Below, in pieces: positions 9,812 to 29,433 of a stretch of 64,000 bases of DNA (positions within the stretch are counted from its first letter, which is position 1; each line of letters begins with the position of its first letter). The notes beneath the pieces are model-generated. The model had not been told where the DNA came from, searched no databases, and worked only from the letters and a program-made list of their open reading frames with translations. The position numbers were made by a program, and so were the translations under genes. Source of the DNA: Rhodospirillaceae bacterium (GTDB lineage: Bacteria > Pseudomonadota > Alphaproteobacteria > MPNO01 > UBA2964); the NCBI GenBank assembly GCA_002709075.1, contig PAPV01000004.1, positions 1 through 64,000 of the forward strand, written 5' to 3'.

Positions 9812-9874
9812 AAAAGTTAATTGCCCACATATCAAGAACTATCTATCTTAATAAAAAATAGGAATGACACAACA

Positions 9875-12208
9875 ATGGATGGTAAAGTTTTAGGGCAGAG
9901 AGTGCCTAGATTAGAAGATCCTGGCTTACTTCTTGGTAAAGGCCGTTATACGGATGATGTTAGGCTGCCTGGAACTGCAAATGCGGCCTTCGTTAGAAGT
10001 CCATTTCCTCACGCTATTTTAAAGTCTATTGATAAAAACGCGGCCATGGATGTTGAGGGCGTAATTGCAGTATATGATTTTTCTGACCTACGACCGCACA
10101 TGACGCAAGACAAATTGCCCGTTGAGTTCCCCTCTGGTGTTCCTAACGCAGAGAATGCAGGCCCTGCAATACTAGTTAAAGATGAAACAATGTACGCCGG
10201 GGAATGTGTTGCTATTGTAATTGCTGAAACGCGCCACATAGCCGAAGATGCAGCTGCATTAGTGTTTGGTGAATGGGAACCTTTACCTGCTGCGGGAGAT
10301 TGCAAAGAAGCACTTGAACCGGATGCACCAAGTGCCCACCGTGATACAAATAACAATTTGATGATGGAAATGGTGCAAGAGTATGGCGATGTCGATAACG
10401 TATTTAGTTCTGCTCCCCACACTTTCCGTGAAGAAATTTGGCAACATCGTGGTACTGCGCACCCTATTGAATGCAGAGGTGCAGTTGGAAGATACGATCC
10501 TGTCTCAGATCAAATAACTTTATGGTCTTCAACTCAGATGCCAAATCTGGCTCAAAGTTATATCATAAGAGTGCTTGGACTACATGAAAATCAAGTGCGT
10601 GTAATTACACCAGATGTAGGCGGAGGCTTTGGACCAAAATTTCTTTTTTACTCTGAAGAATTAGTGGTTGCACTGGCCGCGAAGCTTGTGGGGCGACCGG
10701 TTAAATGGGCTGAAGATAGGCGCGAGCACTTTTTGGCTGCGGTCCAGGAACGTGATCAGTACTGGGAAGCAGAGATAGCACTGAGTAATGATGGATTAGT
10801 GCTTGGTGTCCGAGGTCATGTCATTCACGATCATGGTGCTTACACCGCTCAAGGAATTACTCTTCCGTACAATGCTGCATCTACAATACCTGGACCATAC
10901 AAAGTACCCAACTACCGAATGAAACAATCTCTAGTATTCACTAATAAAGTCCCATGCGCACCTGTTCGAGGAGCCAGCCATCCGCAAGGGACCTATGTCA
11001 TGGAAAGGCTTATGGACAGGGCCGCTAAGGAACTTGGGGTAGATAGAGCTGAACTCCGTGACCGTAACATGATTAGGGGCACAGAGATGCCTTACAAAAA
11101 ACCTCTAAAAACGAGAGCTGGCGTTAATATTGAATATGATTCGGGAGACTTTCCGAAGGCCATGAAAATGGCTTTAGATGGATGCGACTATTATGGATTT
11201 AAGGATAGACAAAGAAACTCGCGAGCAGATGGGCGGTTTTCTGGTATCGGTCTGTCCTTGGGGGTCAAAGGTACAGGGCGCGGTCCGTTCGAAATGGCAA
11301 CAGTTCGAATTGGTCCATCGGGGAAAATATCCGTATACACTGGGGCAGCACCCATGGGGCAAAGTACTCGCACCATGATGGCACAGGTTGTCGCCGAACA
11401 TTTAGGCGGAGACATGCAAAATGTAGAAGTCGTTGCTGGGGATACACAGCCTATTCCGATGGGAATGGGGGGATTTGGCAGCAGACAAGCAATAACGGCG
11501 GGATCATCTGCTCACATTGCCGCAAAAGAAGTAAGAAAGAAAGCACTTAAAGTTGCGGCTCACATGTTAGAAACCTCAGAAGAAGACCTCGAAATAAGAG
11601 GTATTGAGATATTCGTGCGAGGAACTGACATGAAAGTTAGTCTTGGGCAGGTTGCAAATGCTGTCGCTGGGACTCCTGGTTACGCTTTGCCTGGCGGTGT
11701 CGAACCGGGCATGGAGTCTACCCAGCGTTTCTTAACTGATCCTCTGGCCTATTGTTACAGTGCACACTGCTGCGAGGTAGAAGTTGATCCCGAGACAGGG
11801 GGTGTCGAATTTAAACGTTATGTGATTGTTCATGACTCTGGTAATTTAATGAATCCAATGATTGTAGAGGGACAAATTCAAGGCGGTGCAGCCCATGGTG
11901 TAGGAAATGCACTTTTTGAGTGGATGGCCTACGATAAAGAAGCTCAACCTTTAACTACAAATTTTGGTGAATATCTTTTGCCAACAGCCCCAGAAATGCC
12001 TGGGTTTGATGTGAGCTTTTTGGAGAGCCCATCCCCTCTAAATCCTCTAGGGGTAAAGGGTGTGGGTGAAGGCTCCACTGTTCCGGTGGCGGCAGCAGTT
12101 TGTTCAGCCATCGAAAACGCACTTGAACCGTTTGGGGTTCATATTTCGGAAGCCCCTATCACACCACAGCGAATTGTCGAGTTAATTGCTTCTGCAAATC
12201 CAGTGTAA
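9875..12208 (+). CDS. Xanthine dehydrogenase-family molybdopterin-binding subunit (CoxL/CutL-like), orphan
   Basis: Large, molybdenum-cofactor subunit of the molybdenum hydroxylase family, 777 residues. It has the N-terminal hammerhead domain (RVPRLEDPGLLLGKGRYTDDV), GGGFGPKF near residue 245, the GQSTRTMMAQ cofactor loop and the GVKGVGEGSTVP segment with the conserved catalytic glutamate. The loop that separates true CO dehydrogenase (AYRCSFR) from form II relatives (AYRGAGR) reads APVRGASHP, so it is not a form I CO dehydrogenase and its substrate is unknown. The FAD (CoxM) and small 2Fe-2S (CoxS) partners are not adjacent. ATG at 9875 fits the family start; a TTG 18 codons earlier is unlikely. 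Confidence 0.85.
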   Translation: MDGKVLGQRVPRLEDPGLLLGKGRYTDDVRLPGTANAAFVRSPFPHAILKSIDKNAAMDVEGVIAVYDFSDLRPHMTQDKLPVEFPSGVPNAENAGPAILVKDETMYAGECVAIVIAETRHIAEDAAALVFGEWEPLPAAGDCKEALEPDAPSAHRDTNNNLMMEMVQEYGDVDNVFSSAPHTFREEIWQHRGTAHPIECRGAVGRYDPVSDQITLWSSTQMPNLAQSYIIRVLGLHENQVRVITPDVGGGFGPKFLFYSEELVVALAAKLVGRPVKWAEDRREHFLAAVQERDQYWEAEIALSNDGLVLGVRGHVIHDHGAYTAQGITLPYNAASTIPGPYKVPNYRMKQSLVFTNKVPCAPVRGASHPQGTYVMERLMDRAAKELGVDRAELRDRNMIRGTEMPYKKPLKTRAGVNIEYDSGDFPKAMKMALDGCDYYGFKDRQRNSRADGRFSGIGLSLGVKGTGRGPFEMATVRIGPSGKISVYTGAAPMGQSTRTMMAQVVAEHLGGDMQNVEVVAGDTQPIPMGMGGFGSRQAITAGSSAHIAAKEVRKKALKVAAHMLETSEEDLEIRGIEIFVRGTDMKVSLGQVANAVAGTPGYALPGGVEPGMESTQRFLTDPLAYCYSAHCCEVEVDPETGGVEFKRYVIVHDSGNLMNPMIVEGQIQGGAAHGVGNALFEWMAYDKEAQPLTTNFGEYLLPTAPEMPGFDVSFLESPSPLNPLGVKGVGEGSTVPVAAAVCSAIENALEPFGVHISEAPITPQRIVELIASANPV

Positions 12209-18971: not shown

Positions 18972-20495
18972 TCACTCTGATGTCAGCAATGAAATGTTAA
19001 GCATGGCTCTCCGCTTTAACCATGGACTTGGTCTGTATCGCGGATCAAGGTAGAACTCAAACATTGCTTGTAAAATTTGTAAAATTCTCGTAGGTCCCAG
19101 TCTGTCCCCAATGGAGAGTGGCCCTAATGGATAACCAAGCCCGATTTTAACCGCTTTATCTATATCGGTAGGGGAAGCGATTTGCTGTTGTGCTATATCG
19201 CATGCAATATTAATTACAGTAGCAATTGTTCGTTGATTTACAAATCCGGGGCTATCGCTTATGATTGTTACTGAGCTTCCATCTGCGGATAGCGCAGCTC
19301 TTGCGCTGTCACCGAGCGATTTGTCCGAAATTGGCGATAGCATTAAAGTTCGCCTTCCTGCTAGTCCGAAAAGCGTATCGACTCCAAAACTTCTCTCCGC
19401 CTCAACCCCGGCCTCTACCGCACAACTAGTTACATCTTTTCCAAGAGGGGTAAACATACACAAACTATATGGTTTTGGTTTTTTTCCACAATCAATTTCA
19501 ACATAATCTAAAAGTACTTTTTTCAGCAATTCACCACCCGCGTTATCTTCAGGAGAAATCCAAACTGACTTTGGTAACTCAGAGGACTGAGGGTTATTTT
19601 TGCTTAAAACTGTTTTATTATCTTCATACCTATAAAAACCGTTGCCACTCTTGCGGCCGCAAAGACCAGCCGCAACTCGCGTGCCGGTTAACGGAACAGG
19701 TCGAAATCTTGGCTCTTGATAAAACCGGTTATAAATTGATTCCATAACTAAATGAGAAACATCCAACCCAGTCGTATCCATTAACTCGAATGGTCCCATA
19801 CTAAACTTTGGCCCTCCCTCCCTTATAAGATCGTCCACACCGGCAAAATCTGCAATTCCCTCACTAACAATGCGAAGGCCTTCAGTGTTAAGACCACGCC
19901 CTGCATGATTAATTAGAAAACCGGGAGTATCTTTTACCCTGACTGAATCGTGCCCAGAGAGCTTTATAAGAGTTTCCAGAGTGTCACCGGTTTCCAAAGC
20001 TGTTTCGATCCCGCTCACAATTTCAACTATCTTCATTAGCGGAACAGGATTAAAGAAATGAAGTCCGGCAAAACGCTCAGGGCTATCAAGGACAGCCGCT
20101 ATTTCCGTAACCGAGAGGGAAGATGTGTTACTAGCCAAAATACATTGTCGAGAAACAATATTTTCCAGAGCGGAAAAAACATTTTTTTTCGTTTCAAGAT
20201 CTTCCAATACTGCTTCAATCACAGTGTCACACTCAGCCATTTTTTTTATGTCACTGACCTTTCTCAAACGAGAAACGGCAGCAGAAGCATTTTTATCGGA
20301 TAAATTACCTTTTTCTGCTAAACGCAAGATCATTCTTTTGGAGAAAGCACATCCCTCGAGCGCCGCAACTTCGCATTTATCAAAAATAATGACATTCACT
20401 CCGGCCATAGCCATCAATTGGGCAATGCCACGCCCCATAACGCCAGCACCAACCACTCCAACTGTGTACTTTCCCGGTTTAGGTTGTTTTATCAT
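18972..20495 (-). CDS. 3-hydroxyacyl-CoA dehydrogenase (PaaH-like, two C-terminal domains)
   Basis: NAD-dependent oxidation of 3-hydroxyacyl-CoA to 3-oxoacyl-CoA. The Rossmann motif is GVVGAGVMGRGIAQ (13-26). Catalytic-region motifs are LASNTSSL, GLHFFNPVPLMKIVE and the KDTPGFLINH segment, with GRKSGNGFYRY closing the first C-terminal domain. A second such domain follows (SDSPGFVNQR, LGYPLGPLSIGDRLG), giving 507 residues as in PaaH/PaaC-type enzymes. It lies 205 bases downstream of the DUF35 gene on the same strand and probably belongs to the same acyl-CoA pathway, though it may have its own promoter. Confidence 0.9.
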   Translation of the reverse strand: MIKQPKPGKYTVGVVGAGVMGRGIAQLMAMAGVNVIIFDKCEVAALEGCAFSKRMILRLAEKGNLSDKNASAAVSRLRKVSDIKKMAECDTVIEAVLEDLETKKNVFSALENIVSRQCILASNTSSLSVTEIAAVLDSPERFAGLHFFNPVPLMKIVEIVSGIETALETGDTLETLIKLSGHDSVRVKDTPGFLINHAGRGLNTEGLRIVSEGIADFAGVDDLIREGGPKFSMGPFELMDTTGLDVSHLVMESIYNRFYQEPRFRPVPLTGTRVAAGLCGRKSGNGFYRYEDNKTVLSKNNPQSSELPKSVWISPEDNAGGELLKKVLLDYVEIDCGKKPKPYSLCMFTPLGKDVTSCAVEAGVEAERSFGVDTLFGLAGRRTLMLSPISDKSLGDSARAALSADGSSVTIISDSPGFVNQRTIATVINIACDIAQQQIASPTDIDKAVKIGLGYPLGPLSIGDRLGPTRILQILQAMFEFYLDPRYRPSPWLKRRAMLNISLLTSE

Positions 20496-20700
20496 CTACA
20501 AATTCCTTGCAAGTCGATCCGGAGTGCTTTTTGATAGAACTATGGACTCAAATACTTCGACTGAGAGTTTATTAGCGAAAGGCTGATCTCATCCATTTTA
20601 TCGAAAACGGCTCATAACTGTGATGACAACAGGGAACCAAAATTTTTGAAGATCTTTAGTTTCAAACATTTGAACTGTGAGTCTTGCACTGTTAGTTTGA

Positions 20701-21120
20701 TCATAATGTTTCTGGGACAAACTTTACACCATAACGCAATATACCTTCTTGATCATAAAGTCTGCGAATAACAGCCTCTAACTTCAATCCTATTTTGAGT
20801 TGGCTAGAATCAATGTCAGCTAGTCTTGCCATTACACGCGGGCCCTCGAACAAATCTACAATTCCACATAAAACATCACCCGTCATTTTCTGTTCATAAT
20901 CGAATTCGCTGGGTGCTCCACCACCATGCAAAACCGAAAAAGTATATAATTCCCCTAAACCCGAGAGAGGCGTTAAATCGAAATTTTTGCCACCACAACA
21001 TTTGCAAACTAAACGTTGTGGATACACAATGATGGAACAATTGGTGCATTTTCCAGCAATAATGCGTAAGCGTTGATCAATGTTTGCCGCATACATTGGT
21101 AAGGAAATATAAGACGTCAT
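20701..21120 (-). CDS. DUF35-type zinc-ribbon/OB-fold acyl-CoA-binding protein
   Basis: Small partner protein of thiolase-fold enzymes. The zinc ribbon is CTNC with ten residues then CKCCGG (about residues 24-42), followed by an OB-fold (GLGELYTFSVLH, GDVLCGIVDLFEGPRVMARL). In archaea such a protein bridges thiolase and HMG-CoA synthase, and in steroid degraders a DUF35 protein pairs with a thiolase-fold aldolase; both are known facts about the family. Here it follows an HMGCS-like gene (14 nt) and a thiolase gene, which suggests a three-protein complex. Confidence 0.85.
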   Translation of the reverse strand: MTSYISLPMYAANIDQRLRIIAGKCTNCSIIVYPQRLVCKCCGGKNFDLTPLSGLGELYTFSVLHGGGAPSEFDYEQKMTGDVLCGIVDLFEGPRVMARLADIDSSQLKIGLKLEAVIRRLYDQEGILRYGVKFVPETL

Positions 21121-21134
21121 CTTAAACCCCGATT

Positions 21135-22130
21135 TTAAATACTAAATACACGCTTATGTTTTAGATATTCAATATATTTAACCATCCTGCCACAACCAAT
21201 TAACTCATCCGCTGTTATTCCAGTCCCGCGATTTGAAACAAGACCTTTCTCTGCTTTGAAAAGTCCAGCAGTAGCACCACTTCCAATACCAACGGCCAAA
21301 ACAGTATCACCCGCGCACATTTTATCGAATGCAGCTGCAAGCGCAAAAGGTGCTGATGCTGATCCTGCATCCCCGATTTGACTCCACAATGAAATGACCT
21401 CTGCTTCCGGCAAACCAAAGACACGGTTAACAGCTCTCACGACCGCCGGTTCAGCACCAATTGCAATCCTTCCAACTCCAACCCCCTTAATTTCAGAAAA
21501 CTTGGCACCAATAGCAGTTACACTGGCAAGATTACCTTGTGTGCGTAACTCAAGATCAGTAATGCGTTCTTCACCTTGACGACGAAAACGCGCTCCAAAA
21601 CTCTCTTGCGTTATGGCAAGACTATTTATCATGTTGGCAACACCACCACCAGGACCAATTACAAAAGCGGCACCAGCGGCACCGAGGGCATGTTCAAAAT
21701 GCGTATCAATCTTACCAACAGGTGCATCTGCAGCAACGGCCAGAGAATACCTGTTTGGAAGAGCCTCGCAATATTCAATGGCGGCAATTAATGCCTGTAT
21801 ACCGGCCTGTGGTGAACCTGTAATTTCGGTAACACGAATATCGTTATAATCAAAAAGTGCAGTCGGCAACGTGGCCGCGGAGGGTTTTTCCTCATAAGGC
21901 GGAGTGGTTACACCAAAAAAAAGAGCATCAATTTTGGGGAACTTTCTGCCTAATCTTTTGAGCGCTAATTTCGAGGCTTGAATTCCTAAGGTAACTGGAT
22001 CTTCGTCATAAGCGCAGAATGCTTTTTGTTTTAAACCCCTAGCTTCGCAAACACCCCAATTCTCAACATAAGCACTAGCCGGCAGCCTAAGTGAGGGCAA
22101 AGAAACCGCGTATGATATAATTCCCGGCAT
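21135..22130 (-). CDS. HMG-CoA synthase-like thiolase-fold protein lacking the usual catalytic cysteine
   Basis: Thiolase-superfamily protein of 331 residues in the HMG-CoA synthase/KAS III branch; PGIISYAVSLPSLRLP at the start and TLGIQASKLALKRLG are typical. Where HMG-CoA synthases have E-A-C-Y/x-A-G-T, the sequence reads TEITGSPQAGIQAL (near residue 103), with no cysteine. HFEHALGAAGAAF holds a histidine that may match the usual one. It may thus be a non-catalytic subunit or act by another route. It sits 2 nt after the thiolase gene and 14 nt before the DUF35 gene. Confidence 0.75.
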   Translation of the reverse strand: MPGIISYAVSLPSLRLPASAYVENWGVCEARGLKQKAFCAYDEDPVTLGIQASKLALKRLGRKFPKIDALFFGVTTPPYEEKPSAATLPTALFDYNDIRVTEITGSPQAGIQALIAAIEYCEALPNRYSLAVAADAPVGKIDTHFEHALGAAGAAFVIGPGGGVANMINSLAITQESFGARFRRQGEERITDLELRTQGNLASVTAIGAKFSEIKGVGVGRIAIGAEPAVVRAVNRVFGLPEAEVISLWSQIGDAGSASAPFALAAAFDKMCAGDTVLAVGIGSGATAGLFKAEKGLVSNRGTGITADELIGCGRMVKYIEYLKHKRVFSI

Positions 22131-22132
22131 AT

Positions 22133-23305
22133 CTATTCCATCGCTTTAAAGATATGAACGGCAACTGCCGCGCCTGATCCCCCCACATTGTGGGTGAGCC
22201 CATAACCTACGTTAGCTAATTGGCGTGCCGATGTATCAGCGCGCCCCCTCAATTGATTTACAACCTCACAAATCTGTCCTGTTCCTGTGGAACCGATGGG
22301 GTGACCTTTAGCTATTAATCCACCCGAATTATTAATTGGCCGTTTGCCGTCACGTTGCGTTATTCCACTTTCTAAGTAAATTCCTGACTTTCCACGGTCA
22401 CAAAAGCCTAGATCTTCGTAAGAAAGAAGCTCTGCTATCGCAAAACAATCATGGACTTCAGCAAAATCTATGTCTTCCGGCCGAATACCAGCCATTTCGT
22501 AGGCTTTCACCGAGGCATCCACTGCGCCCTGAAGTTTGGTAAGAGAAGTTCGGTCGTGAATAGCTACATAATCACTACCAACCCCACTACCCACCACCAA
22601 AACGGGTTGATCGGTGAAACTCCGAGCCAAATCAGCGCGCGCAAGGATTACCATCGAGGCACCATCGGTGATACCACACGCATCAGAAAAATCCAATGGG
22701 CTTGCTAAATTCGGAGATTTAGTGGCCTGCTCCATTGTAAAAGCTGATCTGAATTGCGCCTTGGGGTTTTCCAACGCATTCTGGCGATTCTTAACTGCTA
22801 CCATTTTTATATGACTTATTTTTGTACCGTACTCAAACATATGACGGCGAGCCATCATCGCGTAAATACCCGCAAAGTTTGTTCCAGCCAACCGCTCCCA
22901 TTCAACGTCACCAGATATACCTAACCACAAACGGTTTCGTTCTCGGGGCAAATCGGACATCTTTTCTACCCCAGCAGCAACTGCAATGTCGGCGCTCCCA
23001 GAAGATATTGCTGAGACAGCATCTCTCATCGCAAAACCAGATGACGCACATGCATTTTCGACATGACGCGCCCCCACGCCCACCATACCTGCTGCCTCCA
23101 TCATAAGGGGGGCAAAATTACCAAGTTGCGCACCGCCAGTTGAGAGGGTGCCAACAAATGCTTCATCAATATCATTTGGATCTAAGCCTTTATCAACATC
23201 ATCAAGCGCTTCTCTTGATGCCTCATAAAAAAGGTCTTTCAGCGTCCTCCCCGGAAACATACCGTAACGTGTTTGCCCAACTCCTATTACCGCTACATCA
23301 ATCAT
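22133..23305 (-). CDS. SCPx-type thiolase / acetyl-CoA acetyltransferase-like
   Basis: Thiolase of the sterol-carrier-protein-x/archaeal type, 390 residues. The nucleophilic cysteine is in HVENACASSGFA (near residue 86). Further marks are EVHDCFAIAEL, GGLIAKGHPIGSTGTGQ and HNVGGSGAAVAVHIF. These enzymes cleave or form 3-oxoacyl-CoA, often with a DUF35 partner. It overlaps the enoyl-CoA hydratase gene by 8 nt upstream and is nearly contiguous with the HMGCS-like gene downstream. Confidence 0.88.
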   Translation of the reverse strand: MIDVAVIGVGQTRYGMFPGRTLKDLFYEASREALDDVDKGLDPNDIDEAFVGTLSTGGAQLGNFAPLMMEAAGMVGVGARHVENACASSGFAMRDAVSAISSGSADIAVAAGVEKMSDLPRERNRLWLGISGDVEWERLAGTNFAGIYAMMARRHMFEYGTKISHIKMVAVKNRQNALENPKAQFRSAFTMEQATKSPNLASPLDFSDACGITDGASMVILARADLARSFTDQPVLVVGSGVGSDYVAIHDRTSLTKLQGAVDASVKAYEMAGIRPEDIDFAEVHDCFAIAELLSYEDLGFCDRGKSGIYLESGITQRDGKRPINNSGGLIAKGHPIGSTGTGQICEVVNQLRGRADTSARQLANVGYGLTHNVGGSGAAVAVHIFKAME

Positions 23306-24086
23306 TTTTTTCCGTTTTACAGTGGAAGTTGGGTCTGCGCTTTTCGAAAAATGCGTCTAGACCTTCTGTAAACTCTGAGCTTGAAAAAGCCAGCGATTGG
23401 GACATGCACTCTAACTCCAATGCTGTGGCTAAATTCTGTGGTTCCATCATAAGATGTCTTTTCGTTAACGAAAAAGCAGTTTGCGGCGCATCTGCCATCT
23501 CAATTGCAATCTCAATGGCACGTTCTTCCGCTCCACCATCGACAGCAATTTCATCAACCAACCCGACACCAAGTGCTTGCGCACTGTCTATAATTTGCCT
23601 CCGCAGCAAAAACTGACGAGCTTTGGCCGAACCAACTCTCCGTGGTAATGTGTAAATAATACCATAATCAGGGGTCAACCCAACACTAAAAAATGGAAAT
23701 CCAAATGAACCACCTTCAGCCAAAACGATTGAATCGCATAAAAGTGCTATTCCGGCGCCTGCACCCATTGCGTAACCCTCGACAGCAGCAACTAGCGGTT
23801 TCTGAGCACACGCCAAAAGATTAACCAATTTGTGATTATCCTGCATACGTTGGAGGCCAGACTTCAAATCTACATTCCTCATTGTATTGATATCACCGCC
23901 AGAGCAAAAATTACCAGCCTCACTTCCTAACACAATTGCATCAAACTTATCACTTTGCAGATACTCACTGAGAAAAGCGATCAGTTGATCTCGTACATCC
24001 GGGCCGATTGCATTTCGTTTCTCAGGTACATTTATTGCGATGCGGGCAATGCGTTTCTCAACAGTTTCAGCTACTACTATCGGCAT
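23298..24086 (-). CDS. Enoyl-CoA hydratase/isomerase family protein
   Basis: Crotonase-fold protein of 262 residues acting on an acyl-CoA. NVPEKRNAIGPDV, the oxyanion segment FCSGGDINTM (about 60-69) and KPLVAAVEGYAMGAGAGIALLCD (about 96-118, split here as KPLVAAVEGYAMG then AGAGIALLCD) are present. The position of the first catalytic glutamate of classic hydratases holds an aspartate-proline-aspartate region (FFSVGLTPDYG), so isomerase, lyase or hydrolase activity is equally possible. It overlaps the lipoate-ligase-like gene by 20 nt and the thiolase gene by 8 nt. Confidence 0.85.
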   Translation of the reverse strand: MPIVVAETVEKRIARIAINVPEKRNAIGPDVRDQLIAFLSEYLQSDKFDAIVLGSEAGNFCSGGDINTMRNVDLKSGLQRMQDNHKLVNLLACAQKPLVAAVEGYAMGAGAGIALLCDSIVLAEGGSFGFPFFSVGLTPDYGIIYTLPRRVGSAKARQFLLRRQIIDSAQALGVGLVDEIAVDGGAEERAIEIAIEMADAPQTAFSLTKRHLMMEPQNLATALELECMSQSLAFSSSEFTEGLDAFFEKRRPNFHCKTEKND

Positions 24087-25191
24087 ATCTTATCGCGTTT
24101 TTTTGATTACTAAGGGCTATATCAATTGCCTCCATTAGATTCTCAACCTCCACTCCAGCAAATTCCACCGAGTCGTTAGCTAAAAATTCATCAACACATG
24201 CGGTCAATTGGCCCGTAGACGCTTCTACGCCAACGAGAGCATCTTCAAGCCAACCAACAGAGTGCAACGGGCGCGGGTGCCAGTCGCCATTGATTATTGC
24301 ATGAATTACTTTCCCATCACGAATTGCAATGGTTGCTCGGATTAACCCCCCAATCGCTTTTGCACGTCCATATCCGAGGGTATCTCCTGATTTCAATATC
24401 GGATGCAAGCGATTACGCTCAGACTTAGCAAACAACCATCTGTCACTTTCATACTCAGAACGAAATTCTTTTCCATAGACAGTCTCTATATCGGAAATAG
24501 TACCGATTTTTAGCCCTTCACCAAATGCTTCATACACTGCACACCTTGCTATACCCTCCAACTCCTCCAAATCAAATTTGCAACAAGCCTCATTTTCAAG
24601 GCAGGTGTAGCGAGAACTCATATCCTTAAGTGTCTTGTCCACAACTTTCTCCGGAGGCATAGGCATGATCCGCCCTGCCAACTCGGTGTCAATGGGGGTC
24701 ACGTTTATTATAATCCGAAATGTCATAACTCCGTTTTCAATCTTCAGAGATGCCGGAATCAACTTTCGTCCATCAACCTCCACATCATTCAGCGGTCGAT
24801 ATTGTGCAGCAAAACCATATCTATCAGCTAATATATTTGCCAGTGCGGTGAGCATTACGGGAAAAGCCTCAGCCGTTGTTCCTGCTACACGCGGATGCTT
24901 AGTTGGAAGATAATAAACCAAAAAAGCAGAACCTTTTCCGGCATAAACTGGACCGCCCCCATTGGGTCTACGGCGAAATAGAACGCCTTCCTTTTTACAA
25001 AATTCTAGATTCAATGTCTGTTCAGGGTCCTCATTCATGCCAATTGTTACTGAGTCTTTATCAAAAACATTAAGATAAACTGTTGGAGGAACTTTTTCTT
25101 CGACGACTGCTCGTTCAATTGCTGGAGAAACCGATACAGAAAAATCTGCATAAGAATTTTTATCTATTATTAACCGCCAATTATTTTGCAT
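24067..25191 (-). CDS. Lipoate-protein ligase A-like protein with C-terminal accessory domain
   Basis: BPL/LPL-fold protein of 374 residues. The lipoyl-AMP-binding signature RRRPNGGGPVYAGKGS lies near residue 72. DGRKLIPASLKIENG (near 145) aligns with the catalytic-lysine segment of LplA but lacks the usual K-I-S/G-G pattern. The C-terminal part (about 240-374: GGLIRATIAIRDGKV, GDWHPRP, LEDALVGV) matches the LplA accessory domain, so both halves are there. It may lipoylate a protein, or it may be a relative used in acyl transfer. Its place between an acyl-CoA ligase gene (9 nt) and a hydratase gene (20-nt overlap) is unusual; no lipoyl-domain protein is nearby. Confidence 0.75.
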   Translation of the reverse strand: MQNNWRLIIDKNSYADFSVSVSPAIERAVVEEKVPPTVYLNVFDKDSVTIGMNEDPEQTLNLEFCKKEGVLFRRRPNGGGPVYAGKGSAFLVYYLPTKHPRVAGTTAEAFPVMLTALANILADRYGFAAQYRPLNDVEVDGRKLIPASLKIENGVMTFRIIINVTPIDTELAGRIMPMPPEKVVDKTLKDMSSRYTCLENEACCKFDLEELEGIARCAVYEAFGEGLKIGTISDIETVYGKEFRSEYESDRWLFAKSERNRLHPILKSGDTLGYGRAKAIGGLIRATIAIRDGKVIHAIINGDWHPRPLHSVGWLEDALVGVEASTGQLTACVDEFLANDSVEFAGVEVENLMEAIDIALSNQKNAIRYADSSS

Positions 25192-25200
25192 TTGCGGTAC

Positions 25201-26370
25201 CTATCTTTTATCCACACATTGGGGACCAGATTCTAATGTTTCTACTATTTCTACTATGTCAGCTTTTATCATCGTCTGCGCTTTAAATCTTTTGGAAACC
25301 TCTTCCGCAACCTCATCTCCACCACTTCCTTGAAGTAACAGACATATCCTCTCTCTTCCAGAGTTATCAGAAAAAACAGAAACGCGATAAGGTCCATCAA
25401 GCTCCGTAATACCAAGAAGACAGAATTTAATTTCAGATGGATACAACTTTACACCTTTTACCTTAATCATATCATCTGTTCGACCAAACACCACATAGGG
25501 AAGGCATTGTGTTCGACCAAAAACTGAGGGAGTTTCAATCTTTAATGTTAAATCCCCCGTGCGATAACGCAAAAGTGGTTGCGCTTCCTTATACAAATGG
25601 GTCAAGACTAGTTCTCCACGCTCACCGTCATTTACCGGTAATAAACTCTCCGGATCGATTACCTCAGCGTAAACCAACTCATCAAAAATATGCACTCCCT
25701 TCCCCCCAGGAAACGTCCTGCCTACTGGGAGAAATTCAGAAAGCGAAAAGGAATCTACAATCATTGTTTCCGGCATAGCGTTTGAAATACTATTATATAG
25801 TTTATGATTTGTCGTAAAAGGTTCTCCGCCTGAAAAGAAAACTTTAGGAGCAGGAACCCCTTCTTCGATAAGCCTAAGGACAAAGGTTGGATTTCCCGCA
25901 ATAATGTTAACATTGTTAGAAATGCAAATGTCAACCGCCCGCTTTGTCTCACCTGGTCCAAGCGCGATGCTAGCAACTCCGTGGGCTTCCATTTGGCTTT
26001 GATAAAATAGCCCAGCCACAAACAAATGATAACTAAAAAATACCGCACAGGTATCGCCGGGCTCAACTCTGCAAGCGTCTAAATTAGAGCGCGCGGCGGT
26101 AATTATACGATTTATATCACCACGCGTCTGAAGTATTGGTATCAAACCATCCCCCATTGGACTCAAGTTCACCCGAACTGGATTTGCGCCACCGAATGCT
26201 CCATAGTTTGGTTTTTTCATTTCCATTACCAAATCGGAACGCGACATTAGAGGCACCGAATCTGAAAATTCAGCTTTATTAGTAACAGAAGTCGGAATAC
26301 GGCTTTTGTAGAATTGGCTATGTGACAACCGATCGAGTGTGTTATTCAATTCATCAAGTGGGAAATACAT
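25201..26370 (-). CDS. Phenylacetate-CoA ligase-like AMP-forming ligase
   Basis: Adenylate-forming enzyme of the PaaK/CapK branch, 389 residues, likely activating a carboxylic acid to its CoA thioester. The N-terminal HSQFYKSRI and SVPLMSRSDL are PaaK-like. FFSGGEPF, SLSEFLPVGRTFPGG, RYRTGDLTLKIE and FGRTDDMIKVKGVKLYPSEI mark nucleotide binding and the C-terminal lid. It is the first gene of a tight minus-strand operon and so may define the pathway substrate, which the sequence does not reveal. Confidence 0.82.
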   Translation of the reverse strand: MYFPLDELNNTLDRLSHSQFYKSRIPTSVTNKAEFSDSVPLMSRSDLVMEMKKPNYGAFGGANPVRVNLSPMGDGLIPILQTRGDINRIITAARSNLDACRVEPGDTCAVFFSYHLFVAGLFYQSQMEAHGVASIALGPGETKRAVDICISNNVNIIAGNPTFVLRLIEEGVPAPKVFFSGGEPFTTNHKLYNSISNAMPETMIVDSFSLSEFLPVGRTFPGGKGVHIFDELVYAEVIDPESLLPVNDGERGELVLTHLYKEAQPLLRYRTGDLTLKIETPSVFGRTQCLPYVVFGRTDDMIKVKGVKLYPSEIKFCLLGITELDGPYRVSVFSDNSGRERICLLLQGSGGDEVAEEVSKRFKAQTMIKADIVEIVETLESGPQCVDKR

Positions 26371-26456: not shown

Positions 26457-26813
26457 TTATTCAATGCTGTCCAAAGTTGTCATTTCCTGCAAACGAAACT
26501 CATTAAGAGAAAGTTTTTCTCCCAGCCAAAATCCAAGTACAACATGGTCTCTCCATGGATTATCCGTATTTGGATGGATTAGAATGCTTAACCCATCTCT
26601 TCTAATGACTAACCACGGGACAATAACTCCAAATTGGTCAGCCTTAAAAGCTACTTGATACATTGGGGCCAAATGTGGACCTACCGATTTATCATGCCAC
26701 CTCCCCAAAATTACCTCTGGGAATTTAATACCAATAGCCTTTCTAAGAACAGTGGCAGTTTCTTTGCTTTCTTTCGCATTATAATAAATATGCGCGTGCC
26801 ATGAATCACACAT
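26457..26813 (-). CDS. DOPA 4,5-dioxygenase family protein
   Basis: Small (118 residues) extradiol dioxygenase-like protein. The family pattern is clear: SWHAHIYYN at the start, LGRWHDKSVGPHLAPMYQVAF, PWLVIRRDGLSILIHPNT and DHVVLGFWLGE. The histidines in HAH, RWH, GPH and IHP are the likely iron ligands. Family members cleave catechol rings, but many bacterial ones have unknown substrates. It ends 86 bases upstream of the acyl-CoA operon on the same strand and is divergent from the fumarylpyruvate-hydrolase-like gene. Confidence 0.85.
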   Translation of the reverse strand: MCDSWHAHIYYNAKESKETATVLRKAIGIKFPEVILGRWHDKSVGPHLAPMYQVAFKADQFGVIVPWLVIRRDGLSILIHPNTDNPWRDHVVLGFWLGEKLSLNEFRLQEMTTLDSIE

Positions 26814-26980
26814 ATTTTATCGAGTTAGTAGAGAGATACATTATTTTGTTCCTCTTAGAATTCTCTCGTACGATAGAATGCATCTAAAAAACTCGTCAAG
26901 TCTAAAACCCTTGCTCTATTTTAAAACCTGCGTCAAATTCTACTTTAAAAGAAACATAGATGCATCTTGGGAGAAATGTA

Positions 26981-27664
26981 ATGACTTTTGTTATAAAACC
27001 GGCAGATACACCGAGCTTGCGAGTTGCCGGCGTTGAAGATCGGTTTCCTGTTCGCCGGATATATTGTATTGGACGAAATTATGCGGCACATGCGAGAGAG
27101 ATGGGTGTTGATGAGAGAGATCCACCGTTCTTCTTCATGAAACCAGCTGACGCAATTGTAGAGAGCGGTGCAAAAATTCATTATCCACCCAAGACACAAA
27201 ATTACCATTACGAGAGCGAACTTATTGTTGGAATAAAAAAAACAGCAAAAAATGTTAAACCATCCGAAGCTAATGAATTCATTTTTGGTTATGGAGTCGG
27301 GCTTGATATGACTCGACGAGATCTACAAATGGAAGCTAGGGAAAAAGGCCGCCCATGGGATATGGGAAAGGGGTTTGATAACTCTGCACCTTGTTCGGAA
27401 CTTCATTCTGCAAATATCATAGGTCACCCAACAAAAGGCAGGATCAGTCTTACTGTTAATGGAAAAACAAAACAGGACGCAGATATTAAAGATATGATTT
27501 GGAATGTCCCAGAAAGTCTCTCTTATCTATCCACTTTTGTGACACTTGAAGCAGGGGATTTAATTATGACTGGTACCCCTTCTGGTGTTGGGCCAGTGTC
27601 TCCGGGGGATGTGATTGTAGCTGCGGTTGAGGGCGTCTCTGAATTAACTTGTACAATTTGCTAA
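26981..27664 (+). CDS. Fumarylacetoacetate hydrolase family protein, probable fumarylpyruvate hydrolase
   Basis: C-C bond hydrolase of 227 residues. RRIYCIGRNYAAHAREMG, FFMKPADAIVESG, HYESELIVGIKK (metal-binding glutamates), GYGVGLDMTRRDLQ and MTGTPSGVGPVSPGD are all family marks. The short length and these motifs match fumarylpyruvate hydrolases of the gentisate pathway, and a gentisate dioxygenase-like gene lies 0.7 kb away. The start at 26981 has GGGAG 7 nt upstream; an upstream in-frame ATG seven codons earlier is less likely. Confidence 0.85.
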   Translation: MTFVIKPADTPSLRVAGVEDRFPVRRIYCIGRNYAAHAREMGVDERDPPFFFMKPADAIVESGAKIHYPPKTQNYHYESELIVGIKKTAKNVKPSEANEFIFGYGVGLDMTRRDLQMEAREKGRPWDMGKGFDNSAPCSELHSANIIGHPTKGRISLTVNGKTKQDADIKDMIWNVPESLSYLSTFVTLEAGDLIMTGTPSGVGPVSPGDVIVAAVEGVSELTCTIC

Positions 27665-28347: not shown

Positions 28348-29433
28348 TTAAGACTCAAAATTTCCGCGGCGCTCTCTATAGAGACCAAGCTTTTCTTGTG
28401 TACCTTTATCCGAAAAACTAAAAAGAATAGTGTCATCAGATCCAACAACATGATGGTGAGGCAACCAGCCTGGAACTACAAAATTATCCCTTGGCCCCCA
28501 CTCAAAAGTATTTTCACCGATTATAGTCTTTCCCGTTCCTTCCACCACTGAATATATCCAGGTGCCTGTTGATTGATAATCAAGCGTTTGGAATTTTTTC
28601 GGTATAAGCTGCAAATAACAATCAAGTGTTGCCATTACTGGAGCACCCGTATTGGGATTTATATATTGTAATTTAATCCCGTGACATGGATCAATATCAT
28701 CGGCTTTCTGCAATTCAAGCAAAGCTTTTTTTGAATTAACGTAAGGATAGTGAAAAACAGGGGAATGAAGTCCCTCAGCCTCATAATTCATTGGCCGCAT
28801 GTTGGCACCAAAGCGAGCAACATTATCATAGGGAGGCCGACCTTCAGGATGAGTTCCTCCTCCATCATAAACGTCGGTAAACATTGTGCCCAGCGAACGA
28901 ATCAGCGGGATATCAAGTCCATCCAGCCAAACAACCGGCTCCCCTCCGATATTTCCATGATCATGCCATACCATTGACGGTGTAAGGATAAGATCCCCAA
29001 CCTTCATTGGTGCCTTCTCTCCATTTATTGCTGTATATGCACTATTACCTTCCACAATAAATCGTAGTGCAGATGGCGAATGACGGTGAGTTGTAGCAAC
29101 TTCTCCTGGCATAATTAGTTGTAGTCCTGCAAAAAGGGAGTCAGCTGCCGCGGTTTCTCCCTTTAAAGATGGATTTTCCAAAATTAGAACCCGACGTTCT
29201 GCCTCCGCCGCTGTAATTAAATTTCCAGTCTCCATTAAACTGGGACGAATCTGATCATACTTCCAAATATGCGGTGCGGCCCGCATTCTTGGCTCCTTGG
29301 ACATAATGGTATGAAGGCGCTCCCATAATGGGGCTACAGCCAAAGGATCAACTTTTTCATAAAATTTTTTACGTTCTGGGGTTACCGCAGGACGAGTGTG
29401 CAATCCTCTCTTAACCAATATTCTGTCCTCCAA
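28348..29433 (-). CDS. Gentisate 1,2-dioxygenase-like bicupin
   Basis: Ring-cleaving iron dioxygenase fold with two cupin domains, 361 residues. The first cupin holds THRHSPSALRFIVEG (about 119-133) with the likely iron-binding histidines, followed by GDLILTPSMVWHDHGN. The second cupin has WGPRDNFVVPGWLPHHH. LYRERRG at the end is typical. With the fumarylpyruvate-hydrolase-like gene it would take gentisate to fumarate and pyruvate, although the maleylpyruvate isomerase is not in the window. Related 1-hydroxy-2-naphthoate or salicylate dioxygenases are alternatives. Confidence 0.85.
   Translation of the reverse strand: MEDRILVKRGLHTRPAVTPERKKFYEKVDPLAVAPLWERLHTIMSKEPRMRAAPHIWKYDQIRPSLMETGNLITAAEAERRVLILENPSLKGETAAADSLFAGLQLIMPGEVATTHRHSPSALRFIVEGNSAYTAINGEKAPMKVGDLILTPSMVWHDHGNIGGEPVVWLDGLDIPLIRSLGTMFTDVYDGGGTHPEGRPPYDNVARFGANMRPMNYEAEGLHSPVFHYPYVNSKKALLELQKADDIDPCHGIKLQYINPNTGAPVMATLDCYLQLIPKKFQTLDYQSTGTWIYSVVEGTGKTIIGENTFEWGPRDNFVVPGWLPHHHVVGSDDTILFSFSDKGTQEKLGLYRERRGNFES

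Follow-up and report, generated by a model that had tools for sequence, protein, structure and literature searches.

A conserved PaaK-like/LplA-like gene pair in an acyl-CoA operon of a Rhodospirillaceae bacterium and its possible role as a split acid:CoA ligase

We analyzed a compact operon of acyl-CoA metabolism in a 64,000-nucleotide (nt) stretch from a Rhodospirillaceae bacterium (assembly GCA_002709075.1, contig PAPV01000004.1, positions 1 to 64,000), hereafter called the window. The conserved heart of this operon is a pair of genes encoding a protein resembling phenylacetate-CoA ligase (PaaK-like) and a protein resembling lipoate ligase (LplA-like), whereas the trio of thiolase, HMGCS-like and DUF35 genes is accessory, being present in one family and one distant genome. 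We regard the reality of the operon and the conservation of the pair as practically certain. For the function of the whole we offer a tentative reading, to which we give somewhat less than an even chance: the operon may activate and shorten a carboxylic acid by means of a split ligase, an isomerase and a dehydrogenase, and a scaffolded thiolase.

Six minus-strand genes (26370-20701) make up the operon, accompanied by a gene for 3-hydroxyacyl-CoA dehydrogenase (HADH). The preliminary description, made from the sequence alone, had named these genes and called the operon compact, and both points were confirmed by the recovery of all seven open reading frames, by their spacings and by family searches, with the following assignments.

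25201..26370, minus strand: PaaK-like protein of 389 aa with the ANL fold (NCBIfam PaaK models, score far under the cut-off)
24067..25191, minus strand: LplA-like protein, 374 aa, with LPL catalytic and C-terminal accessory domains (LplA-B_cat PF21948, 3e-21)
23298..24086, minus strand: crotonase-family protein of the PaaG (isomerase) type (ECH_1)
22133..23305, minus strand: SCPx-type thiolase, 390 aa (SCPx/Thiolase_C_1)
21135..22130, minus strand: HMGCS/PhlA-like subunit, 331 aa, predicted to be catalytically dead (archaeal-type HMG-CoA synthase model PRK04262, 136 bits; cut-off 244)
20701..21120, minus strand: DUF35 zinc-ribbon/OB-fold protein of the ChsH2/BbsA type (OB_ChsH2_C/DUF35)
20496..20700, no strand: gap of 205 nt between the DUF35 and HADH genes, occupied in most relatives by a nitronate-monooxygenase/FabK-like gene
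18972..20495, minus strand: HADH of the PaaH/PRK08268 type, 507 aa, a conserved operon neighbour (3HCDH)

Successive genes are separated by +9 (PaaK-LplA), -20 (LplA-crotonase), -8 (crotonase-thiolase), +2 (thiolase-HMGCS) and +14 nt (HMGCS-DUF35), followed by the wider gaps of +205 nt to HADH and +182 nt from HADH to a transketolase gene. The PaaK-like, LplA-like and HMGCS-like proteins all score far under the curated NCBIfam cut-offs and are therefore distant members of their families.

The full gene set, whose recurrence the preliminary description had proposed to check, is found in the same order in eight genomes of the family, the window's included. When the window proteins were mapped onto the loci of relatives, a core of PaaK-like, LplA-like, crotonase (ECH) and HADH genes was found across three families of the order (f1, f2 and f3). 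These recurrences indicate that the arrangement is not due to chance. The LplA-like protein is present in 22 genomes of the order, including the window's own, with orthologues sharing 59-68% identity; apart from these orthologues, the relatives searched contain only ordinary LplA (~25% identity), and a plasmid collection likewise gave only ordinary LplA matches (21-24% identity). The thiolase-HMGCS-DUF35 trio, which the preliminary description had singled out, proved to be confined within the order to f1, where one genome (G003) lacks it, and it was not found beside the pair in f2, f3, G003 or Paraburkholderia.

A wider scan, in which each GTDB species was represented by one genome, yielded 44 loci, distributed over the window's order, one Rhodovibrionaceae metagenome-assembled genome (MAG) and 21 Paraburkholderia/Burkholderia genomes. 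All belong to Pseudomonadota except one MAG titled Flavobacteriales (TMED123, locus L060), which carries the f1 operon on a contig that is probably misbinned or mislabelled. The PaaK-like and LplA-like genes adjoin each other, always in the same order, in the window, at each of the 44 scanned loci (the PaaK gene of L063 being truncated by a contig end) and in L120, a locus of an alphaproteobacterium of another family (G513), and thus in four lineages. In 21 of the 33 measurable loci the stop of the PaaK-like gene overlaps the start of the LplA-like gene by 4-8 nt. Among 398 sampled Pseudomonadota, both genes occurred in the same two genomes and neither was seen as an orphan. Across these comparisons the two genes always occur together, ECH nearly always accompanies them, and the trio appears in two lineages. 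Our literature search found no paper on a PaaK/LplA operon.

The surroundings of the pair differ between lineages. In L120 the order is PaaK-LplA-thiolase-HMGCS-DUF35, adjoining a TRAP transporter, while the neighbours in Paraburkholderia are an AMP-ligase, acyl-CoA dehydrogenases, a CoA transferase, an ordinary thiolase, MaoC, a citryl-CoA-lyase-like protein and MmgE/PrpD. Related TRAP transporter pairs, each consisting of an NMT1_3-family binding protein and DctM, flank PaaK-LplA in two lineages, at L098 (1741-4948) and L120 (13149-16353), and may import the pathway substrate. Most relatives carry the nitronate-monooxygenase/FabK-like gene ahead of HADH; the window does not, and no remnant of it was detected in the gap at 20496-20700. 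In f2 and f3 a gene for a PRK08327-family thiamine-diphosphate enzyme precedes PaaK, and most loci of these families have a DUF123 gene after the LplA-like gene (L041:10484-10927, L044, L045, L046, L048). Two loci show genes broken over several frames, through either the sequencing errors of long-read MAGs or decay: the HMGCS-like gene in the single-contig MAG L058 (13060-14140) and most operon genes in L075.

The PaaK-like protein retains the ANL fold, with a Foldseek template-modelling (TM) score of about 0.7 to the PaaK structures 4R1L and 2Y4O and 22-26% identity in structure alignments (2Y4O, 2Y27, 4R1L). In the window protein the A3 phosphate loop is replaced by LSPMGDGLIP (residues 69-78), and across the family the sequence SSGTTGKP has given way to one of the type (S/T)PMGxxLVP. 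The A3 loop motif [ST]xG[ST]TG (tested as [ST]xG[ST]TGxP) and the A10 adenylation lysine near the C-terminus are each found in none of the 44 members, while the A7 motif RTGD and the A8 motif GRxD...KGVK are retained in all 44 (RTGD at 270-273 and GRxD at 297-299 in the window). Both the A3 loop and the A10 lysine are present in the canonical PaaK paralogues of L046-L049, four neighbouring loci. In PaaK1, Ser94, Thr96 and Thr97 of the A3 loop contact the ATP phosphates, and the A10 lysine is highly conserved and the key residue for adenylation (PMC8388817). Judged by these alignments, the PaaK-like proteins have very probably lost their adenylation residues; they share with PaaK the fold and the RTGD, GRxD and KGVK motifs but differ in the missing A3 loop and A10 lysine and in having a constant LplA-like partner.

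The LplA-like protein, in turn, keeps the catalytic features of a lipoate ligase. R74, R75, G79, G80, N135, D136 and K143, which make up the RR..GG, ND and GRK motifs (the last with the lipoyl-AMP lysine), are invariant in 45 of 45 LplA-like proteins; only the first glycine of GGG (position 78) varies, being serine in eight of the 45. The full-length model matches Escherichia coli LplA (1X2G) end to end, including the C-terminal accessory domain, and lipoate ligases require their C-terminal domain for lipoyl-AMP synthesis (PMC7253636). The family thus shares both domains, RR..GG, ND and the catalytic lysine with the Lpl(AB) enzymes of E. coli (1X2G) and Enterococcus faecalis (5IJ6). It differs from them in that K-L-V/I-P/A-T/A-S replaces the K-x-S-G seen in most ordinary LplA copies, in a conserved GDWHPRP in the C-terminal domain, and in its linkage to an acyl-CoA-ligase fold rather than to lipoyl proteins. 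In a tree in which some reference branches are long, the family groups as a single clade separate from ordinary LplA (support 92/95; 100% of bootstrap trees). The phylogeny that the preliminary description had proposed therefore sets the protein apart from the housekeeping ligase.

In acyl-CoA synthetases, a single ANL enzyme normally carries out both half-reactions, changing its conformation from one step to the next. Because the loss and the retention of adenylation features in the two proteins are complementary, we suggest that the LplA-like protein adenylates and the PaaK-like protein thioesterifies. The pair may accordingly be a split acid:CoA ligase, a tentative assignment of mechanism from sequence to which we give somewhat less than an even chance. 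In a first step, the LplA-like protein would convert the acid and ATP into an acyl-AMP; in a second, the PaaK-like partner, lacking adenylation residues, would combine the acyl-AMP with CoA to form the CoA thioester. By homology, the PaaG-type crotonase would then isomerise the acyl-CoA and the PaaH-type dehydrogenase would oxidise the 3-hydroxyacyl-CoA, after which the thiolase, held in its scaffold of DUF35 and dead HMGCS, would cleave the 3-oxoacyl-CoA with free CoA.

A close parallel is the mammalian lipoate-activating enzyme, which has the ANL fold, and its partner LIPT1. There, too, one acyl-adenylate is handled by both an activating enzyme and a half-ligase of the LPL fold (PMC7253636). 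The division of labour appears to be inverted here, since the features needed for adenylation are kept by the LPL fold and missing from the ANL fold. More tentatively still, the pair could be an acid:CoA ligase of a new kind, with LPL-fold adenylation combined with thioesterification by a separate ANL-fold protein in the reverse of the lipoate-activating-enzyme/LIPT1 arrangement.

Several points weigh against a split ligase. No case is known to us of an LPL-fold enzyme passing an adenylate to an ANL-fold enzyme. The proposal draws on the order and recurrence of the genes, their invariable pairing, the residues lost and kept, and fold predictions, from which we infer both the complex and the activities, and the model of the PaaK-like protein is only moderately confident (predicted local distance difference test, pLDDT, 75). 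The PaaK-like protein of L120 keeps a partial STG in its loop (TPTSTG), so that ATP binding is possible in some members. Ordinary acyl-CoA ligase genes stand beside the pair in some loci, namely the AMP-ligase of Paraburkholderia and the canonical PaaK of L046-L049. Finally, the threonine hydroxyls of the A3 loop have also been proposed to aid the departure of AMP in thioesterification (PMC8388817), so that loss of the loop might weaken the second step as well.

An unlikely alternative that nevertheless deserves weight is that the PaaK-like protein still makes acyl-CoA or acyl-AMP, from which the LplA-like protein acylates a lysine on either a carrier or an operon enzyme, in the manner of LIPT1 with lipoyl-AMP. 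LIPT1 passes lipoyl-AMP to H protein in vitro yet cannot synthesise lipoyl-AMP (PMC7253636); lysine acylation is the usual job of LPL-fold proteins, and the constant pairing would fit such a route. The adenylation residues, however, are gone from the PaaK-like and kept in the LplA-like protein, the reverse of LIPT1, and among the genes of the conserved clusters none was recognised as encoding a lipoyl domain or a carrier. The genome's biotin/lipoyl domains also look ordinary: there are five matches, an ordinary number, four of which are read, from open-frame length and pairing rather than family search, as 2-oxoacid-dehydrogenase or biotin-carrier domains.

It is decidedly improbable that the LplA-like protein is a divergent lipoate or octanoate salvage ligase placed in the operon by history, next to an ordinary, diverged CoA ligase. 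The retained LplA fold and catalytic lysine favour this explanation, but the separate clade, the altered K-x-S-G, the pairing over four lineages and the loss of the PaaK adenylation residues in 44 of 44 members all speak against it, as does the presence of LipA and LipB, encoded elsewhere in the genome than the operon. The genome also encodes BirA. A search of the genome for the lipoyl-domain partner envisaged in the preliminary description found no dedicated or unusual one, and with LipA and LipB present, lipoate salvage with a dedicated lipoyl partner was rejected. The suspicion that the protein is not the housekeeping ligase has thus held up; the partner we see is the adjacent PaaK-like protein without adenylation residues, not a lipoyl protein.

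We next consider the trio. The resemblance to the archaeal thiolase/HMGCS/DUF35 complex seen at the outset is upheld, with the archaeal acetoacetyl-CoA thiolase 6ESQ as the best PDB match of the thiolase (278 bits, against 108 bits for PhlC). The thiolase has intact catalytic residues (C86; H285 and C287 in HDCF; H335 in GHP). In the HMGCS-like subunit, the equivalents of Cys114 and Glu82 are Pro107 and Thr75, and the catalytic cysteine is replaced by proline or alanine in every aligned relative, including the distant L120. The window subunit is 39% identical to that of L120 (other sampled matches, <=30%). Its best PDB match is the PhlA-type chain 9SKH of 2,4-diacetylphloroglucinol biosynthesis. 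The PhlA subunit of the Friedel-Crafts acylase has lost the same cysteine and glutamate, and only PhlC residues join in acyl transfer (PMC6392133). Since the thiolase is intact and the HMGCS-like subunit, like PhlA, is predicted to be inactive, the trio is best read as a thiolase scaffolded by DUF35 and a dead HMGCS. We consider it likely that the trio is a CoA-dependent thiolase complex of the archaeal/PhlACB type, in which the DUF35 protein is the likely adaptor between the thiolase and HMGCS-like subunits.

The three-subunit set is that of PhlACB (5M3K) and of the archaeal complex (6ESQ), but here it is encoded alongside a ligase pair in an operon of the beta-oxidation type, and its HMGCS-like subunit is diverged. 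Its thiolase is closest to the archaeal one and not of the PhlC type. Benzoylsuccinyl-CoA thiolase BbsAB (7PXP) also combines an SCPx thiolase with a DUF35 zinc-ribbon subunit; no toluene-pathway genes were recognised around our operon, a difference from that system. To our knowledge, BbsAB has no HMGCS-like subunit.

Given the shared losses in PhlA (PMC6392133), the 9SKH match and neighbours of aromatic-catabolism type, the trio could instead work on a phenolic substrate, as PhlACB does, as a C-acyltransferase or deacylase of the Friedel-Crafts type. This is unlikely in view of the much higher score of the thiolase to its CoA-dependent archaeal counterpart than to PhlC and of the operon itself, which as an acyl-CoA beta-oxidation unit naturally provides a 3-oxoacyl-CoA. 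An archaeal-style complex channelling acetoacetyl-CoA into HMG-CoA, as first suggested by the likeness of thiolase and HMGCS-like protein to 6ESQ and by the adjoining DUF35 gene, is virtually excluded: having lost its catalytic cysteine and glutamate, the HMGCS-like subunit makes no HMG-CoA, and its nearest analogue is the PhlA scaffold. The likeness to steroid retro-aldolases also failed, since in Ltp2/Sal enzymes a YDHF/YDCY motif replaces HDCF (PMC12329534), while the window thiolase has HDCF and the nucleophile Cys86.

The catabolic character first attributed to the operon was supported by its content and surroundings. The crotonase lacks both hydratase catalytic glutamates and has the PaaG-type PDxG aspartate (GLTPDYG). 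Three further genes are conserved neighbours in f1.

26457..26813, minus strand: DOPA 4,5-dioxygenase-family protein (an f2 homologue is also near the operon)
26960..27664, plus strand: fumarylacetoacetate-hydrolase-family protein
28348..29433, minus strand: gentisate 1,2-dioxygenase (above the TIGR02272 cut-off)

These lie upstream, and downstream are transketolase, GAPDH and PGK genes. Ring-oxygenase neighbours recur in different forms, as gentisate and DOPA dioxygenases in f1, Rieske proteins in L041 and L048/L049, BoxBC in L044 and HpaB in L098, which points to the catabolism of aromatic acids or ring-cleavage products; the substrate is probably a carboxylic acid that is aromatic or derived from ring cleavage. 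The phenylacetate (Paa) pathway proper was rejected because neither PaaA nor PaaC was found above cut-off, a weak match lying in a 475-aa protein read as BoxB. The cluster of this BoxB includes a canonical CoA ligase, so that benzoate activation there does not call for the pair. Only in L044/L071, one and the same contig, do BoxB and BoxC occur close to the operon. In G000:C3 (L145:3508-9627), box-pathway-like genes (BoxB, BoxC) accompany a FAD monooxygenase and a CoA ligase of the canonical benzoate type, all named by sequence inspection rather than family search. Elsewhere in the window, a MoCoBD gene (molybdenum hydroxylase large subunit) lies at 9821-12208. Locus L122 (G000:C22:63248-72589) contains an unusual density of five adjacent genes for thiamine-diphosphate-dependent enzymes, on both strands, beside a molybdenum hydroxylase gene.

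If the split ligase proves true, two half-reactions would be divided over two unrelated folds, which would bear on the evolution of both families and would provide a modular tool for acid activation. The annotations "lipoate ligase" and "phenylacetate-CoA ligase" would both be misnomers in these bacteria, and the dead-HMGCS trio in its catabolic setting would form a bridge among the archaeal mevalonate complex, PhlACB and BbsAB.

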